A DNA stretch of 32,156 nt from Candidatus Saccharimonadota bacterium (GTDB lineage Bacteria > Patescibacteriota > Saccharimonadia > Saccharimonadales > UBA4665), in contig JAQBRT010000002.1 in NCBI GenBank assembly GCA_028286345.1, positions 1 through 32,156 on the forward strand. The letters are read 5' to 3'. The translations under genes were made by a program, and so were the position numbers. The notes beneath the pieces were generated by a model. The model was not told the origin of the DNA. It did not search any database and saw nothing but the letters and a program-made list of their open reading frames with translations. Position 1 is the first letter of the stretch, and the number at the start of each line of letters is the position of its first letter. This document shows positions 1 to 32,156 of the stretch, one piece after another.

Positions 1-3000
1 CCAAGTCAACGGCACTTATAAATTAAAAGTCGATAACACTGGTCTGATTGATACGGCCGGCGGCCTAGCCGTTGGTGCAACGACTGTTATTACAAGCGGA
101 CGAGTCCTGCAGAACGTCACGGCCAACGCCAGCATCATTACTGCCGGCAGCTTAGCAGCTACTGTTGGCGGCACCGGCCAAACTGCATACACGGCCGGCG
201 ATTTACTGTACGCAAGCAACGGGACAACCCTGACTAAACTCGGGCTTGGATTGTCTGGCCAATGTCTGCAAGCTGGTGCATCTGCTCCAACATGGAGTGG
301 CTGTGCATCGGGCTCACTGTTCAGCATTGCTGGCACCAGCGGCTCGCCACAAAGCGTTAACGGCGGCGGTACGGTTACTATTGTAGCTGGCAATAACATC
401 AGTACCACAGCCGGTGCCGGACCAAATGTCACAGTCGACACTGTCAACAACCCGAACTTTACTACTAGCGTAACCACGCCATCATTACTAGCCACGGCCG
501 CTCTGGCAATTTCGTCTGGTGGGACCGGCGGCATCACTATTAGTACCCCAGGCTCAACCAGTGCCAGCACTGGCGCCATCACCATTCAGTCTGGAAGTGC
601 AACGGTCGGGTCAAACCTTAACGCCGGCACGCTTAGCATCGATACTGGGACAACGACCGGCGCTGGCACTGCCACCCTCAACATCGGCAATACGAACGCC
701 CTGGCGCTTAATATAGGTAATGCCAGCTCAGCCTTAACGTTTAACTCAAGTGCTTTCAAAGTGACTTCAGCCGGCGCTGTTAGCGGCCTGACTACGCTCA
801 GCTTAAGCGGTGCTATCACTGGCACCACCGCCTTGTCGATTGCTGCCGGCGGCACGGCCCAGAACCTAACGCTCGACGGCTCAACCACCGGCCAGGTTCT
901 CATAGGCGGCATCAGCACAGGTGACATCTTGCTCGGTGGCGGCTCAGGTTCAACTGGATGTACACTTACGAACTCAACTGGCGCCTTAGCTTGTACGTCG
1001 ACTATCAATGGTGCAACTATTTCAGGCGGTACGCTTAGCGGCGGCAACGTGTCTGGCGGTACTTTAACTGGCACGGCCGTTAATAGCCTTAATGTCTCGG
1101 GTACAGCTATCACTGGTTCAGCTGCTCTGGCGATTGCTTCAGGCAGCACCGCCCAGAATATTTCTCTGGATGGTTCTACCACCGGCCAAGTCCTGCTTGG
1201 TGGCACGAGCACTGGTGACATTCTCCTCGGTGGCGGCTCAGGTTCAACGGGCTGTACCGTAACTAACAGTTCAGGGGCATTTGCTTGTTCATCCACGATT
1301 AACGGCGCCACACTATCCGGTGGTACACTCAGCGGTGGTAACGTATCTGGTGGTACTTTAACTGGCACAGCGGTCAATAGCCTCAGTGTCTCGGGTACAG
1401 CTATTACTGGTTCAGCTGCTCTGGCAATTGCGGCTGGCGGTACGGCTCAGAACATCTCGCTTGATGGATCAACAACCGGGCAAGTCTTAATCGGCGGCAC
1501 AAGCACTGGTGACATCTTGTTTGGCGGCGGCTCCGGTAGCACCGGTTGTACGCTCACAAATAGCACCGGCGCGCTGGCATGTACCTCAACTATCAATGGC
1601 GCCACCATCTCTGGTGGAACCCTGTCTGGCGGCTCTGTTAGCGGTGGTACGTTGACCGCCACCGCAGTCAACGGCCTGACGGTTTCTGGCACAGCCGTAA
1701 CCGGTTCTGGCGCCTTGGCTGTAGCTGCCGGCGGCACCGCTCAGAGCTTAACCCTCGACGGCAGTACTACTGGTAAAGTCCAAATTGGCGCTACGAGTAC
1801 TGGGGACATCGAATTGGGCGGTGGTTCAGGTTCAACTGGATGTACACTTACGAATTCAACTGGCGCTTTAGCTTGTACCTCAACTATTAATGGCGCAACT
1901 ATCTCAGGCGGGACAATATCTGGTGGTAATGTTAGCGGTGGTACACTCACCGCCTCAGCAGTTAACTCATTGAATGTTTCCGGCACAGCCATCTCTGGAA
2001 CAGGTGCACTGACGCTCGACGGTAACGGCGTAAACACTGTTTCTATCGGTAGCGTCAGCACTGGTGACATCCTGCTAGGTGGCGGCTCAGGTTCAACAGG
2101 TTGTACAGTAACTAACGCTACCGGCGCTTTCGCTTGTAGCTCAACTCTGAACGGCGCCACCATCTCAGGCGGTACGCTCAGCGGTGGTAACGTATCTGGT
2201 GGTACACTGACCGGCACGGCAGTTAACTCACTGAGCGTTTCCGGCACCGCAATCTCTGGAACTGGGGCATTAACAGTTACCGCCGGCAGCACCGCCCAAA
2301 ACTTATCACTTGACGGCTCAACAACCGGCCAGGTTCTCATCGGTGGCACCAGTACCGGTGACATTCTCCTCGGGGGCGGCTCAGGTTCAACTGGCTGTAC
2401 CGTAACTAACAGCTCTGGTGCGTTTGCTTGTGCCTCAACCCTGAACGGTGCGACTATATCCGGCGGCACACTCTCCGGTGGTTCTGTCAGCGGCAGTACG
2501 CTGACGGGCTCAGCCTTGACCTTTAGCGCTGCCTCAACAGCAACCATCCAGCCAGCCACCTCGCAGGCCTTAAATATTACCGCGCACGCTGCCTCAACCT
2601 TTAGTAGTGATGCCGGTGCTTTGACACTGACCTCAGCCACCGCAGCTACTTGGAGTACCGTGGCCGGCAATTTGACCTTGCAGGCTGCCGCTACCCTCAA
2701 CCTGACCGGCACGGCGATATCCCTAAACACGGACACGACAGTTGCTGCCGCTAATGACTTTACGGTTACTAGTGGCTTGACCAGCCTAACCGGCGCCACA
2801 TCAGGGGATGCGCTCAATGTTTCTAACAGTACGTCATCCGGCAATATTGCTGTGTTTAAGTCTAATGTTACCACCGTGATGACCATTAACAGCACCGGTG
2901 CAGTTACTAATACCAATAGCACAAACTCCACTGCGGCTTGGCAGGTTCAGAATTCGAGCGGCGTTAACCTTATTCAGGTTGATACAGCCAGCAATAACAC

Positions 3001-5647
3001 CAATAACTTGGTTACCAACGCTAGCTTCGAAGCTTCATTCACCAGTAACTGGATTGCCAAAGGCAGTTCCACGGTTACGCAGGTAAGTACGCCAACACCA
3101 CCTTATGGTGCCAACGCAGCTAAGGTTGTTACGACTGTAGCTGCCGGTGGTGATGGTATTAAGCAAAACGTTACATTGACCGACTCTGCCAACTACAGTA
3201 TTTCGTTCTATGCCCGGCTAGACTCAGCTTCTGCCAGCATGGCCACTCTGGCGGCCGGCTATAACAACGGCACCTCGGACACCGACTGTGCCATTAGTAG
3301 CGGCACCCTGATCAGCACCGGCTGGACTAAGTACATCTGTACCGTCACTACCGCTGCCAGCCACTCCGGCACGCCGTTCTTCTATATACGCCAAACCGAT
3401 ACTGTGGTTCATACTTTTTATGTTGACGCCGTAACCCTGGAAACAGACGCCAACGCCTCTGGTAACTACCGCGAAGGCAAGGTATACGTCAACGCAACAG
3501 TCGCTAGCCCACTAGTCTTGCAAAACACTGCTGATAGCACTAACGCTTTCCAGATTCAGAATGCTGGTGGCTCCGCAGTCCTTACAGTCGATACGACCGA
3601 TACCAACTTGGTAGGCAACTCAGGCTTTGAGGTTAACACCATTGGTTGGGCCAAGAAGGGTAGTGCTACTATTAGCCGTGACACTGGCCAGGCGATGTAC
3701 GGACAAGCAGCCCTGAAAGTTGCTTCTACTGCGGCATCGAACGACGGTGCTCAGTATTCACTCGGCTCTAACCTGACAGTCGGCGCAACATACACGTTAT
3801 CGTTCTCAGCCAAGCTTTCAAGCGTTGCTTTCGTTGCTGGAACCATGGTTGCCGGCTATGTCAACGGCGGTGGCGATAATAACTGTGTGCTAGCACCTGG
3901 AGTGACTGCGTCGATACCGACGACCACCGGCTGGGTACGATTTACGTGTACTTTCACAGTCGCTTCAACAGCCGGCACGGCCGTTTACATTAGCCAGACA
4001 TCTGCCCTGGCGCACACCTACTGGATTGACTCTGTTGAGCTGGATAGCGGCGCCACACAAGTGGCTTATGGTCTCGGTACGATTAACTTTAACGGTGTCA
4101 TTGCTTCACCGCTAACACTACAAAACAAGAGCGACTCGACGAGCGCCTTTGTAGTCAAAAACGCCGCCTCCACCACCTATCTGATTGATGCCGATACCCT
4201 CAACGGGCGTGTTGGTATTGGTAACAGTGCCCCAACTGCCACGCTTGATGTTACGGGTATAGTGAACGCTTCGACCCGTTATTCTGTGGCCGGTAGCGCT
4301 AGTTTGACTCGAAGCTGTGGCGCTGGTCAGTATCAGGACACGATGGTTGTGACAGGGGGTATAGCAGTAAGCTCCAGTGGTTGTACTACACCAGTTTCTG
4401 ACGTTCGCTTGAAGCAAAATATAGTATCCCTCGACGATTCTATCTTGGACAAGATTAAGAATGTAAGGACTGCGAGCTTTGACTTTGACTGTTCGCTCGA
4501 GGTGTTTACAGAAGCTAACCCTAACAGAATTTCCTGCCCTCAGGGACCTCAGAGCGGAGTTATCGCTCAAGAGCTGATGCAAATTTTCCCAGGCTTGGTA
4601 TTTAAAGAGCCAACTGATGATTACTATCGCGTCCACTACGATCAATTGTCGATTTATACCCTCAAGGCTGTCACAGAAATAGCCCAGCACCTTAACTCGG
4701 CTGGCGATGCTAACTTCGGTGCTGTCACTGTATCTGACTTGACCGCAGGGCTGACTATGAGCGATACGGTAGCTACCAACTACCCAATGGCCGAACAGGT
4801 TAGTGCTGGCGATGTAGTTTACCTCGATACTAACGGCAATGTCCGCGCTTCAACAGCTCCGTTCCAGCACGGCCTACTCGGCACCGTTGTTAACACGGCT
4901 AACGGCCAAGTTGCCGTTGCAACTGCCGGTAAGGTTTCCACAAAGGTTAGCGGCCCGGTTACCGTTGGTGACCTACTGACTTCATCTGGTGTGGCCGGTG
5001 TTGCCCAAGTTGCTAGCGGCTCAGGCCCAATCATCGGTATGGCGACAACAGCGTATAGCGGCTCGGGCCAGGGAACAGTCATTATGGCCGTTCAGAACAG
5101 CCAAACTGGCGGTGGCTCAGGCAGCAGCCAAGCGTTGCAAGACCAGGTTAACACCTTGGGCAGCAGCGTTGACCAGATCAAGGCCGGACTCACCGGTGCC
5201 GATGGCCAGCCTGTTGACTTCAATAACCTCAAGATTGGCGCCTTGCACATCAACCTCGACACTATTGCCGAGGGCGGACTGACCGTTGGCGGCCCAGCCG
5301 AGTTCAAGGGCAACGCATTGTTTGACCAGCTAGTAACCTTTGGTGCCCCAGTCGACTTTAACGACGAAGTCCACTTTAACGGCAACGCCAACTTTAACAA
5401 CAACACCGGTGGCTATGCCGTGATCAACGCTGGCCGCACCGCTGTCCACGTGGCCTTCACCAAGGCATACGCCCAAGCACCAATTGTCTCGCTAACGGCA
5501 GGCGACAGCAGTGGCGCCGTCTATCACTACAGCAACGTGACTGCCAATGGCTTCGACATCGTCCTCGACCACGCTTACGTCACCGATGTTCATATCTCAT
5601 GGCTGGCGCTGAGTGTTATGGGTGCTAACACTTTCATCCAGCAATAG
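1..5647 (+). CDS. Giant repetitive surface-fibre protein with S74-type chaperone motif (5' partial)
   Basis: The frame is open from the left edge (first full codon at base 2) to TAG at 5645, giving at least 1881 residues; the true start lies upstream. Seen in order: Gly/Ser/Thr-rich beta sequence; six tandem repeats (about 830-2515); two jelly-roll, CBM-like domains starting with NLVTNASFE (about 3005-3440) and NLVGNSGFE (about 3605-4065); a motif SDVRLKQNI at 4397 followed by a helical region to about 4700, matching the start of the peptidase S74 intramolecular chaperone of phage tail spikes; a beta module with GDVVYL and VGDLLTSSG (about 4807-5100); a short coiled coil (about 5116-5200); and a beta C-terminus. 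Inference: a trimeric exported fibre for adhesion or host contact. S74 is usually C-terminal, but here more than 400 residues follow it. Function is inferred from architecture only. Confidence 0.85.
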   Translation, partial: QVNGTYKLKVDNTGLIDTAGGLAVGATTVITSGRVLQNVTANASIITAGSLAATVGGTGQTAYTAGDLLYASNGTTLTKLGLGLSGQCLQAGASAPTWSGCASGSLFSIAGTSGSPQSVNGGGTVTIVAGNNISTTAGAGPNVTVDTVNNPNFTTSVTTPSLLATAALAISSGGTGGITISTPGSTSASTGAITIQSGSATVGSNLNAGTLSIDTGTTTGAGTATLNIGNTNALALNIGNASSALTFNSSAFKVTSAGAVSGLTTLSLSGAITGTTALSIAAGGTAQNLTLDGSTTGQVLIGGISTGDILLGGGSGSTGCTLTNSTGALACTSTINGATISGGTLSGGNVSGGTLTGTAVNSLNVSGTAITGSAALAIASGSTAQNISLDGSTTGQVLLGGTSTGDILLGGGSGSTGCTVTNSSGAFACSSTINGATLSGGTLSGGNVSGGTLTGTAVNSLSVSGTAITGSAALAIAAGGTAQNISLDGSTTGQVLIGGTSTGDILFGGGSGSTGCTLTNSTGALACTSTINGATISGGTLSGGSVSGGTLTATAVNGLTVSGTAVTGSGALAVAAGGTAQSLTLDGSTTGKVQIGATSTGDIELGGGSGSTGCTLTNSTGALACTSTINGATISGGTISGGNVSGGTLTASAVNSLNVSGTAISGTGALTLDGNGVNTVSIGSVSTGDILLGGGSGSTGCTVTNATGAFACSSTLNGATISGGTLSGGNVSGGTLTGTAVNSLSVSGTAISGTGALTVTAGSTAQNLSLDGSTTGQVLIGGTSTGDILLGGGSGSTGCTVTNSSGAFACASTLNGATISGGTLSGGSVSGSTLTGSALTFSAASTATIQPATSQALNITAHAASTFSSDAGALTLTSATAATWSTVAGNLTLQAAATLNLTGTAISLNTDTTVAAANDFTVTSGLTSLTGATSGDALNVSNSTSSGNIAVFKSNVTTVMTINSTGAVTNTNSTNSTAAWQVQNSSGVNLIQVDTASNNTNNLVTNASFEASFTSNWIAKGSSTVTQVSTPTPPYGANAAKVVTTVAAGGDGIKQNVTLTDSANYSISFYARLDSASASMATLAAGYNNGTSDTDCAISSGTLISTGWTKYICTVTTAASHSGTPFFYIRQTDTVVHTFYVDAVTLETDANASGNYREGKVYVNATVASPLVLQNTADSTNAFQIQNAGGSAVLTVDTTDTNLVGNSGFEVNTIGWAKKGSATISRDTGQAMYGQAALKVASTAASNDGAQYSLGSNLTVGATYTLSFSAKLSSVAFVAGTMVAGYVNGGGDNNCVLAPGVTASIPTTTGWVRFTCTFTVASTAGTAVYISQTSALAHTYWIDSVELDSGATQVAYGLGTINFNGVIASPLTLQNKSDSTSAFVVKNAASTTYLIDADTLNGRVGIGNSAPTATLDVTGIVNASTRYSVAGSASLTRSCGAGQYQDTMVVTGGIAVSSSGCTTPVSDVRLKQNIVSLDDSILDKIKNVRTASFDFDCSLEVFTEANPNRISCPQGPQSGVIAQELMQIFPGLVFKEPTDDYYRVHYDQLSIYTLKAVTEIAQHLNSAGDANFGAVTVSDLTAGLTMSDTVATNYPMAEQVSAGDVVYLDTNGNVRASTAPFQHGLLGTVVNTANGQVAVATAGKVSTKVSGPVTVGDLLTSSGVAGVAQVASGSGPIIGMATTAYSGSGQGTVIMAVQNSQTGGGSGSSQALQDQVNTLGSSVDQIKAGLTGADGQPVDFNNLKIGALHINLDTIAEGGLTVGGPAEFKGNALFDQLVTFGAPVDFNDEVHFNGNANFNNNTGGYAVINAGRTAVHVAFTKAYAQAPIVSLTAGDSSGAVYHYSNVTANGFDIVLDHAYVTDVHISWLALSVMGANTFIQQ
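830..2515 (+). repeat. Six tandem 98-aa (294-bp) coding repeats
   Basis: The motif GSGSTGC recurs with its first codon at 941, 1235, 1529, 1823, 2084 and 2378. The spacing is exactly 294 nt except between copies 4 and 5, where it is 261 nt (11 residues fewer). Each copy runs roughly LDGSTTGQV, STGDILLGG, GSGSTGC, a second Cys 11 residues later, NGATISGGTLSGG and a variable link. Copies 1 and 4 are nearly identical at DNA level around the Cys pair, which suggests recent duplication or gene conversion. The outer boundaries are approximate. Confidence 0.9.
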
Positions 5648-5713: not shown

Positions 5714-6238
5714 GTGCCACGAGTTAAAGTGCCAGTGCCTGTACAGGTCGCGGATCCAGTGGAGCCAGTTAACGAAGTACCAAGGACGGCGCCCAGACAG
5801 CGTTTTTCCAAAGAACAATTGTTATTTGCCGCCGTAGGCGCGGTGTTCCTGGTTCTTATTATTATGCTGGCTAGCGTCATGCATTCTAAAAACCAGCTCG
5901 AGACCAAGGTCAACAAGCTTTCAACAAACACTGCAGCCAGCAGTGCTAACGAAGTTAAGAAGCTGACAGATGAAATTGGCGCTGTCTTCCAGCTGCCAAC
6001 AGGGGAAACACCAACCCTGGCCACTGTTAGTGATGCTGCTAAGGTCAAGAACCAAGCCTTTTTTAAGAACGCCCAAAACGGCGATAAGGTATTGCTGTAC
6101 TCTAAGGCCGGTGAGGCTATCTTGTACCGCCCAAGCATCAAAAAGATCATTTCTGTTGCTCCTGTGAACCTCAATGGCTCTAGCACTGATAACGGTGGTA
6201 GCTCGGCAACAAATGGTGCAACTTCGACAACGAAATAG
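5714..6238 (+). CDS. Single-pass membrane protein, paralogue of the next gene
   Basis: A 174-aa protein read from GTG at 5714, chosen because AAGGAG sits about 8 nt upstream. It has a Pro/Val-rich cytoplasmic N-terminus (about residues 1-34), one membrane segment (about 35-56), a short heptad-like stretch (about 58-85) and a conserved C-terminal module with LPTGETPTLATVSDA, NAQNGDKVLLY and AGEAILYRPS, ending in a Ser/Thr/Asn tail. The same module is in the 6317 gene, so the two are tandem paralogues. Both follow the giant fibre gene but have their own promoters. I do not recognise a named family; the exported C-terminal module may bind or anchor surface structures, but that is a guess. Confidence 0.8.
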   Translation: MPRVKVPVPVQVADPVEPVNEVPRTAPRQRFSKEQLLFAAVGAVFLVLIIMLASVMHSKNQLETKVNKLSTNTAASSANEVKKLTDEIGAVFQLPTGETPTLATVSDAAKVKNQAFFKNAQNGDKVLLYSKAGEAILYRPSIKKIISVAPVNLNGSSTDNGGSSATNGATSTTK

Positions 6239-6316: not shown

Positions 6317-6967
6317 ATGGCCGACATTAATGTCCAGATGCCATCAGAGAACGAGGATTTTGACGCAACGAGCACTGGTACAACTATTGCACCAACCGTT
6401 CCTGCCGAAAGTACCCCGGATTTTAGTGCGCCCGCAACAGAGGTAGCGCCGGAAACACCAGCAGTTAAGGAACCAGAGGCACCAGCCGCCGCCGAGCCAG
6501 TCGTTGCCGCGGCTGAGCCAAAAGCTCCAAAAGAGCGCAAAGCCGTACCGGTATGGCCAATTGTTACCGCTGTCTTGGCACTGGCTGTCATTGCCCTAGG
6601 CTTCTACAGCTTTACGCTGATGAATTCCAAAAAAGACCTGGAAACCAAGCTGGCTAGCGCCAATGCTAACCCGCAGCTACTGGTCCAGAAGCAAACCGAC
6701 GACCTGATCAGTAAAGTTAGCCACCTAATGACTCTGCCAAGCGGTGAAACGCCTACAGTTGCCAATGTTAGCGACGCCGCCAAAGCCAAGCAGCAATCAG
6801 CTTTCTTTGCCAACGCCCAGAACGGCGACCGTGTCCTGATGTATGTTAAGGCCGGCGAGGCAATTCTGTACCGCCCAAGCACCAACAAGATCATCCTGGT
6901 TGCCCCGTTGACTTTCAACAACACCGCAACTACCACCACTCCTACCACGTCAACGACTAAGAAATAG
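6317..6967 (+). CDS. Single-pass membrane protein with Pro/Ala-rich N-terminus, paralogue of the preceding gene
   Basis: A 216-aa protein starting at ATG 6317 behind AGGGAGG. Residues 1-75 are acidic and Pro/Ala-rich, probably disordered and cytoplasmic; residues 78-102 form one membrane helix; then comes a short coiled region and the same module as in the 5714 protein (LPSGETPTVANVSDA, NAQNGDRVLMY, AGEAILYRPS), with a Thr-rich tail. Compared with the 5714 copy, the cytoplasmic tail is longer and unrelated while the exported module is well conserved, so selection appears to act on the exported part. The family is unnamed to me. Confidence 0.82.
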   Translation: MADINVQMPSENEDFDATSTGTTIAPTVPAESTPDFSAPATEVAPETPAVKEPEAPAAAEPVVAAAEPKAPKERKAVPVWPIVTAVLALAVIALGFYSFTLMNSKKDLETKLASANANPQLLVQKQTDDLISKVSHLMTLPSGETPTVANVSDAAKAKQQSAFFANAQNGDRVLMYVKAGEAILYRPSTNKIILVAPLTFNNTATTTTPTTSTTKK

Positions 6968-27411: not shown

Positions 27412-28254
27412 ATGAAGCTACTGCACATATCCCGCCAACGCTCAATCAGGGCAGGGGCTTTGGTTATAGTAGGGCTTGTCTTGCTAGCAACTGTCGTGGC
27501 CCCGTTGCGGGCAGCAGCATCAACCGGACAAAGTTTCCTGGTGAACGGCCCAGCGCCAACTAAGGGCATGCTTATGAGCCTGGCGTCAAACTCCGACGTT
27601 GTTGCGCCAGCCACTACTAACACTGCCTCATCGCTGGTTGGTGTTATTGCACCAGTCGACTCCGCCTTTGGTGGGCAGTCCGGGAAAGTGAATGTGCAGA
27701 CCGACGGCGTGGCTAACACGCTCGTTAGTACGCTCGACGGCGACATCAAAGCCGGTGACCGCATCACCGTTTCGGCCGTTGCGGGTATTGGCACCAAAGC
27801 AACAACTAACGGCTGGATTGTGGGAGTAGCCCAAACAGGCTTCTCGTCCAAAAGTAGCGGTGCTGTAAAAACCGAGGTTACTACTACCAGCGGCGCCAAA
27901 ACATCGCTGTATGTCAGTACTATCCCGGTATCAATTAAGGTGACTTACTACACGAGCCCTGACACTGTAGTTAAGACAGTAGCACCAGCTTGGCTGCAGG
28001 ACCTAGCAAACAAGCTGGCTAATAAGCATGTATCGACCCAAGCCCTCATCCTTAGTTTTGTACTATTCTTGATTGGCCTAATAGCGGCGATCGTGATCGT
28101 TACTAGCGCAATTAAGAACTCATTCCTGTCCATTGCGCGCCAACCACTGGCTAAAAGCCAGATTGTAAGGATTGAGCTTCGATCGTTGGCAGTCGCCGGG
28201 GGCATCCTGCTGTTTGCCCTAATGACATCGTTTTTGCTATTACGCGTACTGTAG
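27412..28254 (+). CDS. Exported membrane-anchored protein with fibre-type beta module
   Basis: A 280-aa protein. Basic N-terminus plus a hydrophobic stretch (about 13-33) with a likely signal cleavage site near AAA (35-37). The exported part (about 45-150) contains SLVGVIAPV, GKVNVQTDG, GDIKAGDRITVS and GWIVGVAQTG, which follows the same order as GLLGTVV, GKVSTKVSG, VGDLLTSSG and IIGMATTA in the giant fibre (about 4850-5060), so the module is shared. Two C-terminal membrane helices (about 205-232 and 257-280) flank a basic loop. Function is unknown; it may anchor or assemble surface fibres. Confidence 0.78.
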   Translation: MKLLHISRQRSIRAGALVIVGLVLLATVVAPLRAAASTGQSFLVNGPAPTKGMLMSLASNSDVVAPATTNTASSLVGVIAPVDSAFGGQSGKVNVQTDGVANTLVSTLDGDIKAGDRITVSAVAGIGTKATTNGWIVGVAQTGFSSKSSGAVKTEVTTTSGAKTSLYVSTIPVSIKVTYYTSPDTVVKTVAPAWLQDLANKLANKHVSTQALILSFVLFLIGLIAAIVIVTSAIKNSFLSIARQPLAKSQIVRIELRSLAVAGGILLFALMTSFLLLRVL

Positions 28255-28259
28255 CAATA

Positions 28260-29096
28260 CTACTGCGTAATAAAGTAATTGAATATGTACGTTTCGCCAG
28301 CTGCGGGAGTAGTGCCGGTTTGGACAGTGAAGAACTTAGTACTTTGACTGACATAGTAATTTAACGCTGCGCTTGCTGCATTGACCGGTGTTAGTTGTAC
28401 GCGAGAGTTGGTCGCAAAGGCCGTGCTGTAGGTTATGATAGCCATCTCACCAGCATGTTGCGTGCCGTCACCACTAGAAATAGTAATTGTTCCCGATGTG
28501 TCTGTCCCATCAATATTCACCGTGCCGCCAGCACTAGCGACGCTTGCGGCAATGGTTGGGCGGCTGCCAGTTGGCAGAATATGCCCGCCAATGCTTAAAT
28601 CACCACTCAGCTTGATCGTCTTGGCGTTAATAGAACCAACGCCGAGGCTTGTGGCTGTCAGGAGTCCGGATACCGACAGATTACCATCAATGGTGGTGTT
28701 GCCGGCAACGCTTAGGTTGCCACCCAGCTGTACATTTTTGGCCAGGCTTGTTTCACCTTGCACGTCTACATTATTCTGAAACAGCGTTGAAGCCGAAATA
28801 GTGAGCTGCTCATTTGTGCTGCTACCGGCATTTTGCTTTTCGATTTTTTGCAGCGTACCGGCACTCAAAGTCTGGGTATTAATAACAATGTTAGTGGGTG
28901 TTTTCTTGGACGACTTAAGCGCCGGGATGACGGCAATAAGTGAGCCAATAACAGCTATGCCAATACCGATACCCAGCCAAATTAATTTACGCCGAAGTTT
29001 TTTTGTGGGCGGAGGAGGGGAATCTCGGTCTGTCGGTAATAAAAAACCGTCGACTGACTCAAGTGTCTCAATCGAACTGTTGGGGTTGTCGTCCAT
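28260..29096 (-). CDS. Type II membrane-anchored fibre-like protein
   Basis: A 278-aa protein. A short acidic, Pro-rich cytoplasmic tail (1-31), basic KKLRRK, one membrane helix (39-60), then an exported stalk with regular beta turns (GGNLSVAGNTTIDGNLSVSG, about 125-145, with similar spacing around it) suggesting a beta-helix. The C-terminal domain (about 215-278: STAFATNSRVQLTPVN, YYVSQSTKFFTVQTG, YIFNYFI) resembles the C-terminus of the giant fibre (FTKAYAQAPIVSLTAG, YHYSNV, GFDIVLD). It ends 5 nt from the convergent 27412 gene. A membrane-tethered mini-fibre is the best description. Confidence 0.75.
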   Translation of the reverse strand: MDDNPNSSIETLESVDGFLLPTDRDSPPPPTKKLRRKLIWLGIGIGIAVIGSLIAVIPALKSSKKTPTNIVINTQTLSAGTLQKIEKQNAGSSTNEQLTISASTLFQNNVDVQGETSLAKNVQLGGNLSVAGNTTIDGNLSVSGLLTATSLGVGSINAKTIKLSGDLSIGGHILPTGSRPTIAASVASAGGTVNIDGTDTSGTITISSGDGTQHAGEMAIITYSTAFATNSRVQLTPVNAASAALNYYVSQSTKFFTVQTGTTPAAGETYIFNYFITQ

Positions 29097-31843: not shown

Positions 31844-32156
31844 ATGAAAAGCTCCACAACGAACTACAAGCTTATATCGCAGAGAGTAATTGCTGTAGCG
31901 TTTGTGGCAGCATCTCTACTCGGTAGTGTTAGCTTTATAAACCAAGGGCAGGCAAACGCTGCTTCTGGCGCGCCATTCGCCCAGGCGTATGTGCGCCTAG
32001 ACCGCCTAGCTGCCGTTACTGTTACCGGTGGCCGTGTTTGTATAAAGCCATCAACGGCTAACCAAGCACAAACAATTGCTAGCGTAAAAATTACTTTCCC
32101 AACCACCGGCGGTACAGACTACCTAGTTAGCGCCACAGTTGGTAACTGGGCAACCA
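31844..32156 (+). CDS. Secreted surface protein, 3' partial
   Basis: ATG 31844 opens a frame that runs off the right edge (104 codons seen). Residues 1-40 are a signal peptide: basic start, hydrophobic core (VIAVAFVAASLLGSVSF) and a likely cleavage site at ANA (about 40). The mature N-terminus reads ASGAPFAQAYVRLDRLAAVT, then VTGGRVCIKPSTANQ and a beta-rich stretch (KITFPTTGGTDYLVSA). This opening is typical, from memory, of large Patescibacteria surface or S-layer-like proteins. It is separated from the 30707 gene by its own strong promoter. Full length and function cannot be judged from the fragment. Confidence 0.72.
   Translation, partial: MKSSTTNYKLISQRVIAVAFVAASLLGSVSFINQGQANAASGAPFAQAYVRLDRLAAVTVTGGRVCIKPSTANQAQTIASVKITFPTTGGTDYLVSATVGNWAT

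Follow-up and report, generated by a model that had tools for sequence, protein, structure and literature searches.

Little is settled about the way in which ultra-small bacteria assemble and process giant proteins of the cell surface, and the locus described here raises the question in a particular form: what does a chaperone domain familiar from phage tail spikes do in the middle, and not at the end, of a giant chromosomal fibre gene? The window, i.e. the whole stretch of DNA that was analysed, is the entire 32,156-base contig C1 of a genome of 901,885 bases in three contigs. Because the window is the whole contig, the 5' end of the fibre gene stays open and the N-terminus of the protein is unseen; in a search for the gene start via contig overlaps, C2 and C3 were found to share 127 bp, and no overlap reaches the left edge of C1. 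What can be seen is one open frame, cut at its 5' end by the contig edge, which together with the two genes that follow it is laid out in Table 1.

Table 1. Positions in the window of the fibre gene, its parts and the two genes downstream.
Feature	Position	Strand	Basis or remark
Giant fibre gene, 5'-truncated	2..5647	+	ORF, at least 1881 aa
Shaft repeats, some six degenerate copies of ~98 aa (294 bp) each	839..2510	+	End placed by eye from the translation
First CBM_4_9 carbohydrate-binding domain	3002..3367	+	44.8 bits
Second CBM_4_9 carbohydrate-binding domain	3605..3982	+	47.4 bits
GRVGIG...LDVTG stretch, like the triple-β-helix stalk motif before S74 in relatives	4205..4396	+	Putative
Peptidase_S74/ICA chaperone; predicted cut before Ser1466, partner Lys1471	4397..4600	+	
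C-terminal helices of the chaperone	4601..4720	+	Structure model
β module, phi29 gp12 C-terminal / phage cement fold	4769..5095	+	Structure model
Helix, presumed coiled coil	5126..5188	+	Model, pLDDT below 50 here
Short strands, six-residue period (β spiral)	5243..5395	+	Model, low pLDDT
H-type-lectin / tailspike-tip domain	5405..5611	+	Model and profile
Small membrane protein gene	5714..6238	+	Next gene after each of the 11 homologous fibre genes examined
Paralogous gene, product 44% identical to the small membrane protein	6317..6967	+	

From N- to C-terminus, the order is one of ~98-aa repeats, two CBM_4_9 domains, a stalk-type motif (GRVGIG...LDVTG, at residue 1402 and recognised from sequence only), Peptidase_S74, and then 348 further residues. 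An earlier note on this DNA had described repeats, twin lectin-like domains and, after a chaperone motif, more than 400 residues with a β module, a helical part and a β domain, and each of these elements was recovered. The repeats appear as a tandem period of 294 bp (3.7 copies), with a TGDI-GGGSGSTGC motif occurring six times, mostly 98 aa apart; the lectin-like pair corresponds to the two carbohydrate-binding domains, both of which exceed the profile cut-off of 25.9 bits; and the C-terminal stretch, 415 residues beyond the Ser of the motif, does contain a β module, a helix and a β domain in the structure model.

Central to what follows is that the fibre contains a genuine Peptidase_S74/ICA domain. 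A profile search matched PF13884 over residues 1466-1533 at 39.9 bits (cut-off 22, E 5e-10), a modest score for this family, and the SDVRLKQNI motif singled out earlier, with its Lys five residues after its Ser, starts exactly at nucleotide 4397: its serine is Ser1466, the first residue of the domain, and its lysine Lys1471. The S74-like fold on which the earlier note had staked its reading is indeed predicted, at a pLDDT of 92-97 for most of the S74 part in the AlphaFold2 model; the two structure models that were made have mean pLDDT values of 64.9 and 59.2, with low confidence between domains. The best PDB match of the modelled S74 domain is the ICA domain of MYRF (7dc3; E 6.7e-6; VIA Z 9.6 over 118 residues at 2.9 Å), with the phage chaperones 3gw6 (endosialidase, Z 7.3) and 3gud lower down. 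MYRF was also the sole match in a PDB sequence search, a weak one (E 0.3) in which the dyad positions are aligned: the Ser of the window falls opposite MYRF position 587, which is Ala in the crystallised construct, and the Lys opposite Lys592. Cleavage of MYRF needs both Ser587 and Lys592, the equivalents of Ser911 and Lys916 in endosialidase NF (PMC8326128).

The tail after S74 is modelled as a β module, a helix, short strands at a six-residue period and a final β domain. The β module resembles phi29 gp12 (3gqh; Z 12.5, 99 residues, 2.0 Å) and the capsid (stabilisation) protein of the haloarchaeal virus HFTV1 (Z 14.1), and several phage cement proteins match it about as well as phi29 gp12 does. 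The C-terminal domain of phi29 gp12 is the other well-known self-cleaving tail-spike domain. The window β module gave no match to PF11962 (Peptidase_G2) and reached no Pfam cut-off, and PF11962 scored 21.6 bits against a cut-off of 25 in one relative (L145); some ten other Patescibacterial genes in the sample combine S74 with the β module. The last domain is matched by the Pam1, LKA1 and Sf6 tailspikes, by discoidins and by Helix agglutinins at Z ~8-9.5 (discoidin II 9.2, Helix agglutinins 8.1-8.5), with tailspike tips and H-type lectins doing so about equally, and the Pfam H_lectin profile scores 23.3 bits on it against a cut-off of 24 (E 7e-5). As modelled, this domain has the H-type-lectin/tailspike-tip fold, which on its own is no proof of sugar binding. 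Elsewhere in the window, a secreted or membrane protein (27412-28254, plus strand) carries a stretch that matches the β-module profile (E 7e-12), and a short protein of fibre-like appearance (28260-29096, minus strand), which has a hydrophobic segment early in its sequence, ends in another type of C-terminal cap, one that is found after S74 in L025-L028.

Could so long a tail simply be a quirk of the window gene? The phylum sample rules this out: a C-terminal extension after S74 is the rule in Patescibacteria, and is absent from every phage sampled. We found S74 in 14 of the 93 genomes of the window's own family. Of the Patescibacteria genomes sampled, 93 of 381 carry it, and there 93 of the 107 complete S74 genes continue for at least 100 residues past the domain and 69 for at least 200 (median 266); these loci are nearly all of the matches in the phylum, and give the same result as an earlier sample biased towards larger frames. 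Amongst viral S74 genes, by comparison, two samples contain no case with at least 100 residues past the domain (0 of 95 and 0 of 97; 31-81 residues, medians 40 and 44). The second viral sample was drawn with a long-tailed query, countering the short-tailed query of the first, and yielded the same result, although the two are not independent because several contigs recur. Matches from other bacterial genomes reach at least 100 residues past S74 in 4 of 88 cases, the sole one above 200 being a Roizmanbacteria gene; a Bacteroidota sample, mostly from one genome, does so in 3 of 30. That the phylum is Patescibacteria follows from this Candidatus Roizmanbacteria genome (L244), whose match positions are identical to those of a genome from the phylum sample (G240). 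The viral and general bacterial samples consist of best-scoring matches to a query and not of random draws. A literature search, outside which most subscription-journal papers fall, found no paper on S74 in Patescibacteria. When the protein from S74 to its end was used as a query, no close relative with a name was retrieved, and a search with alignment A4 gave no conserved stretch.

Whether the domain still cuts can be approached through the residues it has kept. Across 119 distinct Patescibacterial S74 domains, Ser1 is present in 107 of 107 aligned cells and Lys6 in 116 of 117, whereas Asp2 and Arg4, which are also found in most sequences behind the search profile, persist less often (79 of 109 and 82 of 115, respectively). 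Of the rows that lacked an aligned Ser in an earlier alignment set, several are alignment truncations in which the Ser is visible by eye. Because the dyad has held where the Asp and Arg next to it have drifted, S74 self-cleavage is probably retained in Patescibacteria, a pattern which favours cutting and is no proof of it.

We posit, with somewhat better than even confidence, that the window encodes a host-derived, probably trimeric giant surface adhesin, whose S74 domain cuts the chain into a shaft and a lectin-tipped piece. On the pattern of phage tail spikes and MYRF, the S74 domain would bring three chains together, the β-helical stalk before it would fold in register, and Ser1466, with Lys1471, would cut the Val1465-Ser1466 bond. 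The piece released would be 416 residues long and, whereas phages lose the chaperone alone, would also comprise the β module, the helical section and the H-lectin-like tip. Because the cut would free the whole of this piece, the end product would be two trimers: a shaft bearing two CBM_4_9 domains, and a lectin-tipped piece that may be separate or held non-covalently. MYRF shows that a long C-terminal half can be tolerated, and it oligomerises after cleavage (PMC3742443). The conserved dyad and the phylum-wide early placement of S74 lead to a clear prediction, i.e. two fragments, with the cut before one serine.

Not everything points the same way. Matches to the window tail, whole or in part, occur in 19 of the 93 family genomes, and because these tail relatives are mostly without S74, the domain looks like an insert that may be present or absent where shaft and tail join. 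Most of the S74-free relatives examined retain both the lectin-like end and the β module, the latter usually bearing an ADxAE motif that may be a cleavage site, as in phi29 gp12; homologues thus have the same tail without S74, and this type of fibre can therefore do without the chaperone. Such homologues count against a chaperone that cuts, as do a related S74 domain that lacks both dyad residues (L115) and the second copy in L093, which lacks the Lys, together with the modest S74 score of the window and the low confidence of the models between domains; L093 and L074 each have two S74 domains per gene. Perhaps, then, S74 acts as a trimerisation clamp that cuts rarely or never, and the mature protein is a full-length chain with the lectin domain at its tip. 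An attached tip would be workable, because S74-free tail homologues keep the lectin domain covalently attached, and the tails show elaboration and not decay, which fits continued use. We nevertheless regard a clamp as a rather unlikely, if serious, alternative: Ser and Lys, the pair important for cutting, have stayed much more constant than the Asp and Arg beside them.

If the chain is cut, as we favour, the fate of the tip could still differ. A special case of our preferred explanation has the C-terminal piece shed as a soluble trimeric lectin, with the shaft serving mainly as a delivery stalk. The fold of the tip is a lectin fold, and what follows the predicted cut is a self-contained piece of several domains, both of which suit shedding; yet there is no sign of the piece leaving, the C-terminal half of MYRF stays in its membrane after cleavage (PMC3742443), and the tip is also found in relatives that have no S74. 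On balance, we think shedding unlikely.

As for the origin of the fibre, the earlier note had seen no phage genes around it, which holds, and had taken it to be probably host-encoded, which is supported. The neighbours are ordinary chromosomal genes (ROK kinase, S1 protein, IF-2, formyltransferase, PriA and adenylate kinase, and further M24 peptidase, FtsA, FtsZ and ribonucleotide reductase), homologues occur across the family and the phylum, and the tail alone has no match in 50,697 phage records, the phage matches listed for the fibre falling within its S74 part. An identity as a tail fibre of a phage or prophage, whole or in remnants, is highly improbable. Phages do offer familiar examples of S74, of the tailspike-tip fold and of the cement-like module, but the housekeeping neighbours and the tail without phage matches lead us to reject a prophage. 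Homologues also turn up repeatedly in the family, with a conserved partner gene downstream, and neither viral S74 sample (95 and 97 complete genes, with several contigs in common) contains a long tail.

This partner lies directly downstream of the fibre gene, on the same strand and 67-176 bases away, in 11 of 11 homologous fibre genes examined, and is present whether the fibre has S74 or not. The small membrane protein it encodes probably belongs to the fibre system, perhaps with a role in anchoring or assembly. Several complete relatives start with a signal or membrane segment, and the window copy, too, may be located at the surface. One homologous fibre of 2930 aa without S74 (L138:379-9168, plus strand) begins instead with two MerR-type DNA-binding domains, separated from the fibre by one membrane span at about residue 199; it might be a regulator tethered in the membrane, with its fibre outside, and is the only frame above 700 aa with a MerR-type domain among the family matches. 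A third giant fibre-like frame, of at least 2231 aa and also cut at its 5' end, lies at the right edge of C3 (L006:5307-11999, minus strand); it gave no match to Pfam domains, S74 included, and has a QVNGTYKLKVD motif in common with the start of the window. At its right edge the window breaks off within a gene for a secreted protein (31844-32155, plus strand), and the start preserved there could be the one missing from that giant frame.

More broadly, and only tentatively, for we think it less likely to be right than wrong, S74 could be a general mid-chain processing device which splits Patescibacterial giant fibres, once assembled, into two functional trimers, one with a lectin-like tip, and which in some members works in tandem with a phi29-gp12-fold or intein-like module in a staged maturation. 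Intein/Hint-like stretches after S74 were seen at L038:1426-2157 and L087:663-1424 (E 4e-6 and 8e-7, both below the Pfam cut-off). Should the proposed cut be real, the fibre would be a bacterial counterpart of MYRF mid-chain cleavage, and would offer a route for a surface fibre to bear a detachable lectin tip.

Known systems each share part of this arrangement. The S74 proteins of Bacteroidota (e.g. Emticicia agri, 39 matches) are likewise chromosomal, but stop soon after S74 (median 68.5 residues, with a maximum of 164, mostly from one genome). Vampirococcus lugosii, a small predator from the same bacterial radiation, has giant membrane proteins, presumed fibres, that are thought to make the cell surface look fibrous (PMC8080830); the text of that paper mentions neither S74 nor a lectin. 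The Peptidase_G2 domain of phi29 gp12 and the phage cement proteins share the fold of the window β module, which differs from that of the S74-free relatives in being without their ADxAE motif. Phage tail spikes and fibres, such as endosialidase NF, have the S74 fold and the dyad in common with the window protein, and perhaps also, judging from a sequence motif, a triple-β-helix stalk upstream, but there S74 ends the protein, whereas here a long tail follows and the gene is chromosomal. The closest precedent is MYRF (human and mouse), at once the best structural match and a protein in which a mid-chain ICA cut yields two trimers: it has the same Ser/Lys dyad, the same mid-chain S74/ICA domain and a long C-terminal part. 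In MYRF a DNA-binding domain precedes the ICA and a membrane span follows it; the 1881 aa of the window fibre, its N-terminus lying beyond the contig edge, contain neither a DNA-binding domain detected by Pfam nor a hydrophobic span, and the flanks are instead those of a surface fibre, with carbohydrate-binding domains before the chaperone and a lectin-like tip after it.
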